Of a stretch of DNA of 64,000 nucleotides, positions 31,033-32,435 are shown piece by piece. The position numbers were made by a program, and so were the translations under genes. Source of the DNA: Pseudomonadota bacterium (GTDB lineage: Bacteria; Pseudomonadota; Gammaproteobacteria; UBA5335); NCBI GenBank assembly GCA_034189865.1, contig JAXHTV010000002.1, positions 1 to 64,000 on the forward strand, in the 5' to 3' direction. The notes beneath the pieces are model-generated. The model was not told the DNA's origin and ran no database searches. It saw only the letters and a list, made by a program, of their open reading frames with translations. Positions within the stretch are counted from its first letter, which is position 1, and each line of letters opens with the position of its first letter.

Positions 31033-32412
31033 ATGGATGGCGGAGTTGAATTTGACGAGCGGCTCATTCAACACTACGACGCGGCCCGGTCCCGTTACAC
31101 TTTCTACCCGACTCCGAGACACTTTCATCCCCTCTTCAACGGAACGACGTTCCGCCGGGCTCTTCTAACCAGTAACAACAATGCGCCGACCCGCTCCCTC
31201 TCCCTTCTGATTTACATCCCGTTTTACAAGGCGCCGGACGACCGCGCCAGCGGCCATCGCACCGACCCGAGTCAGACCCCGCACTATTTCGCGTGCTTGA
31301 AACGTGAAGTCGAATTGCTCGGCCAGCTGCTGCGCCCGGATCGGAGAGTCGCGGAGCTGACCGTGGTCGGTGGAACGCCAAGTGCCCTTGCGTCGGCGCA
31401 ACTCGACCCGTTCTTCCCGTGTATTCACCGTGTGTTTTCACTGCCCCCCGAGGCCGACCGCGAATGGGCAGTCGACCTGGATTCGTCCGATCGGTGTGCC
31501 CGTGTTTTTTCGGACTTAGTCAATCTCGGCTTCAACCGGGTTCGCCTACGCCCGAGAAATTTCCAGCCGCAGAAACCATCCCTCGGATCACGACGAGTCA
31601 ATTCGGATATACGCACCGCAGTAGTAGCGGCGCGGCGCGCCGGCTTGGGTTCCGTCGGTGTCGAGATTTTTTCCACATCGCTGATGCAACAATCAAAATA
31701 CGTCAGCGTGGCACTGGATCAAGTGATCGAAGCGCGGCCGGATCGCGTGTTCCTCTTTCGGCCCCCGCAAAAGTTCCATTGTGCCAGTGGTACGGACTAT
31801 TACCGTGATCTGGAGTTTGTCGGATCGAAAAACAATTTCGCAGTTTTCAAGCGATTTGCCGAACAGCTGCGCGATGCCGGTTATGTTTATGTCGGCCCAG
31901 ATGTTTTTGCGCTTCCTTGCGATGCGCTGGTTCAAGCGCTGCAGACCGGTCAGCTATACCAGAATTGCTACGGCTATACCGCACACGGTCATTGCGACTT
32001 AATAGGATTGGGGTTGGGTGCAATCAGCCGAATCGGAACCAGTCTCTCCCAGAACACTCGGGACCCTCACGTCTACGAAAACCAATTGAACAGCGGCGCA
32101 CTCCCGGTGGAATGTGGTATCGAATTAACACGGGTTGATCTGCTTCGCGAAGATATCATCTCCGACATCATGTGCCAGGGATGGGTCGATTACGCGTCAA
32201 TTCAGGCCCGTCATGGCATTGAATTCGAGGATTATTTCCAAGAGGAGCTCGTGAATCTCAGAGCCATGGAAACCGACGGCCTGCTAAAAATGTCGGCTGA
32301 TCATTTCGAGATTACCGCCCGCGGTAAACCACTACTGCCGGTCATCGCGGAGGTATTCGATACGGAGGCGTCGAGCCAGAACCGGAAGAGACCTCACTTT
32401 CATGCCGTATAG
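31033..32412 (+). CDS. HemN-like protein lacking the radical-SAM cluster cysteines
   Basis: 459 residues, the length of HemN (oxygen-independent coproporphyrinogen III oxidase), colinear with it over the whole length. The N-terminus (LIQHYDAARSRYTFYPT) and the HemN C-terminal domain (YGYTAHGHCDLIGLGLGAIS, ELTRVDLLREDII, FEITARGKPLLPVI) are clear. The cluster motif CxxxCxxC is gone: IPFC is IPFY (Tyr65), and the other two positions are Asp69 and Ala72. E. coli Tyr56 corresponds to Leu59, His58 to Tyr61 and Glu145 to Asp148. The GGGTP loop is VGGTP. The frame is fully open, so it looks maintained. HemN chemistry is not expected; a heme-related binding or regulatory role is possible. FNR box upstream. 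Confidence 0.9.
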   Translation: MDGGVEFDERLIQHYDAARSRYTFYPTPRHFHPLFNGTTFRRALLTSNNNAPTRSLSLLIYIPFYKAPDDRASGHRTDPSQTPHYFACLKREVELLGQLLRPDRRVAELTVVGGTPSALASAQLDPFFPCIHRVFSLPPEADREWAVDLDSSDRCARVFSDLVNLGFNRVRLRPRNFQPQKPSLGSRRVNSDIRTAVVAARRAGLGSVGVEIFSTSLMQQSKYVSVALDQVIEARPDRVFLFRPPQKFHCASGTDYYRDLEFVGSKNNFAVFKRFAEQLRDAGYVYVGPDVFALPCDALVQALQTGQLYQNCYGYTAHGHCDLIGLGLGAISRIGTSLSQNTRDPHVYENQLNSGALPVECGIELTRVDLLREDIISDIMCQGWVDYASIQARHGIEFEDYFQEELVNLRAMETDGLLKMSADHFEITARGKPLLPVIAEVFDTEASSQNRKRPHFHAV

Positions 32413-32435
32413 ATGTAAGCCGGGGAATGGTCAAA

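Follow-up and report, generated by a model that had tools for sequence, protein, structure and literature searches.

The hemN gene that lies beside fnr in the DNA analysed here (the window, a stretch of 64,000 nucleotides from contig JAXHTV010000002.1) is probably a lineage-specific pseudoenzyme, which has been kept for a non-catalytic role. HemN needs a [4Fe-4S] cluster and two molecules of SAM, and since the catalytic centre of the encoded protein has been erased while its overall fold is seemingly preserved, a new, non-catalytic job is probable. The features on which this reading draws are collected in Table 1.

Table 1. Position, strand and basis of assignment of the features discussed in the text (coordinates of the window).
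Feature	Start	End	Strand	Basis
fabB-type ketoacyl synthase, upstream syntenic neighbour	29637	30854	+	Pfam; sister-genus synteny
FNR box TTGATGTACGTCAA	30944	30957	+	pattern search; one mismatch from consensus
TAGAGT, possible -10 hexamer (4/6), weak	30979	30984	+	read from sequence
Cluster-less HemN orthologue, proposed pseudoenzyme, 459 aa	31033	32412	+	TIGR00538, HemN_C above cut-off, 1OLT
Former iron-sulfur loop, residues 65-74, YKAPDDRASG replacing CxxxCxxCxC	31225	31254	+	alignment with 54 HemN rows; AlphaFold pLDDT
C-terminal half, better conserved, residues 271-459 including HemN_C	31843	32409	+	identity, near-invariant residues
fnr, convergent neighbour	32436	33299	-	PRK11161 E=2.3e-65; CxxCxxxxxC sensor motif intact
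Pyruvate kinase, downstream syntenic neighbour	33558	34985	+	Pfam; synteny

The original prediction, made from the DNA alone, had described a frame open over 459 codons and colinear with HemN including its C-terminal domain, and this description is confirmed by profile and structure. The product matches TIGR00538 in a profile search over residues 5-453 (E=1.6e-74, 251.3 bits) and E. coli HemN (1OLT) over residues 5-451 (E=2.8e-50), and Pfam places HemN_C above its cut-off at residues 365-433. The TIGR00538 score nevertheless stays below the equivalog cut-off of 324.95 bits; for comparison, the sister-genus orthologues score 540-546 bits and the canonical HemN of the same genome 580.8. Pfam Radical_SAM (PF04055) finds no match in the protein at E values up to 1, nor in the whole-genome search. 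The protein does not read as a HemW either, its score with TIGR00539 being 33.7 bits against a threshold of 205.4 and the HNxxYW motif being absent.

All four cluster cysteines are replaced. Cys62, Cys66, Cys69 and Cys71 of E. coli HemN correspond to Tyr65, Asp69, Ala72 and Gly74, the first three as originally predicted and the fourth in addition. The substitutions predicted at the equivalents of Tyr56, His58 and Glu145 are likewise found, as Leu59, Tyr61 and Asp148, and are accompanied, in E. coli numbering, by the changes of Phe68 to Arg71, Gln172 to Arg, Asp209 to Glu, Ala243 to Pro, Phe310 to Cys and Gln311 to Tyr. The four cysteines together with Tyr56, His58, Glu145, Gln172, Asp209 and Ala243 are identical in 54 of the 54 other HemN rows of the alignment. 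Residues of the two SAM sites are prominent among those altered: Tyr56, as well as His58, Glu145, Phe310 and Gln311, which we take to be the SAM-site residues of 1OLT, read Leu, Tyr, Asp, Cys and Tyr. In HemN, Tyr56 stacks on the second SAM (PMC13266988). Similarly, the motifs GPRYTSYPTA and RNFQGYTT, described as needed for HemN activity (PMC10320005), are degenerate, reading RSRYTFYPTP and QNCYGYTA. With no cluster ligand left, radical-SAM chemistry should be impossible, and coproporphyrinogen III dehydrogenase activity is predicted to be absent; judged by the established chemistry of the family, the protein would be unable to act as HemN. The replaced ligands and SAM-site residues, as read in the alignment, thus support the loss of radical-SAM chemistry that had been proposed. 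A double or compensating frameshift across the cysteine-loop region was considered and rejected: when all three frames are read, the residues HR after the loop stay in register with the sister-genus orthologues, and both halves of the frame have the codon usage of the neighbouring genes.

The AlphaFold2 model of the protein, built with 64 sequences, has a pLDDT of 82.1 and a pTM of 0.84, and the solved fold that it matches best is 1OLT (TM 0.85/0.90). Its pLDDT drops below 50 at residues 68-75, 116-118, 179-189 and 245-259, as well as at 450-452 near the tail, and, the tail aside, these segments align with the loops bearing the lost invariant residues. Canonical HemN, modelled as a control with the same sequence set, reaches a pLDDT of 94.0 without such segments, and about 90 at the iron-sulfur loop. 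By this model the HemN fold seems largely retained, with mainly the former active-site loops undefined, which largely bears out the earlier suggestion that the fold has been kept; the low loop confidence may partly mirror the divergence of the protein from its alignment.

The gene order pdxH-fabA-fabB-hemN-fnr-pyk is common to the window and four sister-genus genomes, in one of which the block is split over two contigs. In all four, hemN is convergent to fnr, the latter being 67-70% identical to the window fnr, and the fnr-linked hemN bears the cysteines in the three genomes with that part sequenced. The cluster-less protein is 36-38% identical to these orthologues. The full-length tree does not place the protein because its branch is too long (5.3 changes per site; median 0.36), so that only the C-terminal half is informative, and there it is sister to the sister-genus orthologues (support 63/91). 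Position in the synteny block and the C-half tree together indicate that the gene is the orthologue of a normal hemN and, with the match to 1OLT, that it belongs to HemN by common descent and fold. Rare residues held in common with the sister genus number 13 of 65; although this ratio is the highest, controls reach 0.17 and the signal is weak. Adjacency of hemN and fnr is itself a common arrangement, an fnr-like gene lying at most 4 kb from hemN in 28 of 80 other-genome loci, these being the best 80 of 571 relatives.

Some further observations concern the surroundings of these genes. Between the stops of the cluster-less hemN and of fnr lie 23 bp (32413-32435) without any terminator-like site, and the same contig encodes a further regulator of the Fnr family, whose identity to the window Fnr is 46% (113793-114476, minus strand). 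In G005, a sister-genus genome with 7% contamination, there is an additional canonical hemN with an Fnr-like gene after it (L047:1980-4152); the HemN closest to this additional copy is from a distant family, and the copy may therefore be contamination. A genome of the same family but another genus (G001, 82% complete) has no hemN match and only a distant fnr.

A set of 97 positions, each at least 95% invariant among the other HemN proteins, was used to look for constraint; the gene has lost 45 of them, as against 0-11 in other HemN proteins. These losses are uneven, 38/62 falling in residues 1-270 and 7/35 beyond (Fisher p=1e-4), such that the C-terminal half keeps 28 of its 35 near-invariant residues. 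Compared with the sister-genus orthologues, the N half is 29-30% identical and the C half 46-50%, whereas the halves of canonical HemN pairs differ on average by 1.6 points (s.d. 4.5). Within the barrel, or N half, 41 of 46 non-invariant hydrophobic-core sites remain hydrophobic, those lost (77, 154, 174, 185 and 247) lying in or near loops of the low-confidence type; where hydrophobic sites of this half have changed, 22 of 27 are still hydrophobic (0.81, compared with a neutral mean of 0.49 and a maximum of 0.77). Neutral simulations from a canonical hemN required about 0.5 changes per site for the same N-half losses and accumulated 8-12 stops; each of the 1800 runs acquired at least one stop, and each lost more C-half residues than the gene itself. 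The stop-free frame, the few C-half losses and the kept hydrophobicity of the core lead us to reject uniform neutral decay, in agreement with the original argument from the open frame, and the gene has neither the stops, nor the frameshifts, nor the neutral substitution pattern of a pseudogene. A codon model of six sequences returned omega values of 0.04 and 0.01, which are unusable, the synonymous time being saturated or at bounds; in the same model, with its saturated synonymous sites, omega=1 on the window branch fits far worse.

Recent relaxation of constraint is less easily dismissed than uniform neutral decay. Part of the conservation may be a legacy of the long functional period that the divergence from the sister genus includes, and not the product of continued selection; with synonymous sites saturated as well, constraint after cluster loss may have been of any duration. 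In the chief alternative, the gene would be a hemN on its way to being lost, whose function went once a second hemN was present, which has acquired no stop or frameshift yet, and whose conservation is mostly inherited. The canonical copy would make it dispensable, and its occurrence in one genome only as well as its exceptionally long branch would suit such a history; we consider this unlikely, however, since the neutral change needed for its N-half losses should have left stops in the frame, the C-half losses are far too few, the hydrophobicity of the core exceeds the neutral expectation, and codon usage and GC3 are like those of the neighbouring genes in both halves. The disparity between the halves, close to zero in canonical proteins, could also mean that function resides in the C-terminal half alone, which might for instance bind a protein, and that the barrel is passive ballast, but the barrel core too has been kept above neutral expectation and we regard this as improbable.

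That same kept core, with the loops at the barrel mouth rewritten, would also fit a mouth that now hosts non-radical chemistry of another kind or another ligand. Such a neofunctionalised enzyme is distinctly improbable, given that no structure is predicted for the new loops and that a single sequence yields no new conserved motif. The genome being a 72-contig draft, one might also suspect an assembly chimera, a sequencing error or compensating frameshifts; yet the substitutions are spread across the whole barrel half, in a region of conserved synteny, and codon usage is uniform on the 208-kb contig, which leaves this source with a negligible chance. Against the pseudoenzyme reading that we prefer stands the fact that it concerns a single genome, with no second copy for an estimate of dN/dS.

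A second, canonical hemN, the check for which had been proposed with the original prediction, is present on the same contig (about 131927-133306), where it adjoins a gene for NnrS and an NsrR-like regulator of the Rrf2 family (about 129719-133306). Its setting is that of a nitric-oxide response, as against the fnr setting of the window copy. The genome also encodes hemF and a canonical hemW, whose product scores 383 with TIGR00539, so that with the canonical hemN the chemistry is covered. The trees place this canonical copy with a gene from a distant family (support 97/93), next to which no NnrS gene was recognised; a horizontal origin is not claimed, as the alternative of grouping the copy with the sister-genus genes survives formal testing (p-AU 0.098).

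The FNR box noted originally is real as a sequence, and its centre precedes the start codon of the cluster-less hemN by about 82 nt. Sites with one mismatch occur in 1.6% of 178-bp stretches of the window. Three canonical relatives (L017, L069 and L083) have FNR boxes 72-81 nt upstream of hemN, and none is present at a similar distance upstream of the sister-genus hemN. The hexamer TAGAGT is about 31 nt from the centre of the box, near class II FNR spacing, and a consensus scan upstream of the gene detected no sigma-70 promoter. Since the window Fnr keeps its N-terminal sensor cysteines, the candidate box and the spacing of the hexamer make control of the gene by FNR plausible.

We would therefore picture the course of events, in outline, as one in which the canonical hemN took over anaerobic heme synthesis and the resident, fnr-linked gene, freed from catalysis, was retained as a folded protein, still to be induced by FNR once oxygen runs out. 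Through its C-terminal half this protein might bind a tetrapyrrole (coproporphyrinogen, protoporphyrin or heme) or a protein partner, and it could serve as a carrier or regulator. Tetrapyrrole binding is our best guess by analogy, because HemW and CgdH2, both described without HemN activity, bind heme, and is offered as a tentative possibility. The complete proposal, of a first HemN pseudoenzyme that has shed its cluster and SAM sites and, induced by FNR, now acts without chemistry as a carrier of tetrapyrroles or a regulator of the anaerobic supply of heme, is more of a speculation and, taken as a whole, somewhat doubtful.

A cluster-less HemN is known so far from one genome only. A clade of such homologues beside fnr did not emerge, the other fnr-linked HemN proteins that were read having their cysteines, and a relative sharing the losses was not detected among 9 genomes of the order, 369 of the class and 398 of the phylum, a result which the original prediction had itself named beforehand as weakening it. 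Scanning 84,980 species with the protein alone recovered no relative; with the alignment, 571 relatives were recovered, the best 80 of which all carry CxxxCxxC, and hence no second cluster-less case is among those 80. Cysteines were read in the best-scoring loci, so distant, independently derived cluster-less HemN proteins could exist. No relative closer than the sister genus appeared in the order, class and phylum sets or in the 84,980-species scans, for an order that is sparsely sampled and a genus that is represented by one genome. The open-access full text, most subscription papers being outside its reach, yielded no cluster-less HemN and no HemN or radical-SAM pseudoenzyme.

The protein shares with the oxygen-independent coproporphyrinogen III dehydrogenase HemN of E. 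coli (1OLT) its length, colinearity, predicted fold, HemN_C domain, fnr neighbourhood and FNR box, but differs in lacking CxxxCxxCxC, in its changed SAM-site residues and activity motifs and in its sub-cut-off score. HemW, a heme chaperone with the radical-SAM fold, is a relative of HemN described as heme-binding and without radical-SAM enzyme activity (PMC11442138); it keeps three cluster cysteines and HNxxYW, whereas the present protein has neither and is far closer to HemN than to HemW (251 vs 34 bits). The HemN-like CgdH2 of Campylobacter jejuni, which is devoid of coproporphyrinogen dehydrogenase activity, binds heme that it can receive from ferrochelatase (PMC10320005), and is the model that we propose for how the protein might work. 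Neither a recognisable set of heme ligands nor the HemW motif is there in the window protein to support tetrapyrrole binding. CgdH2, moreover, is a member of the MenK clade with its cluster cysteines in place, unlike the fnr-linked HemN orthologue described here. A gene backed by a second copy has, in a clear case, lost its chemistry in its ancestral place, and a natural HemN that has lost the catalytic centre but seemingly kept the fold distinguishes the scaffold's requirements for folding from those for chemistry. It would also make it possible to test directly what HemW and CgdH2 suggest, namely that the HemN scaffold handles tetrapyrroles with no radical chemistry involved.
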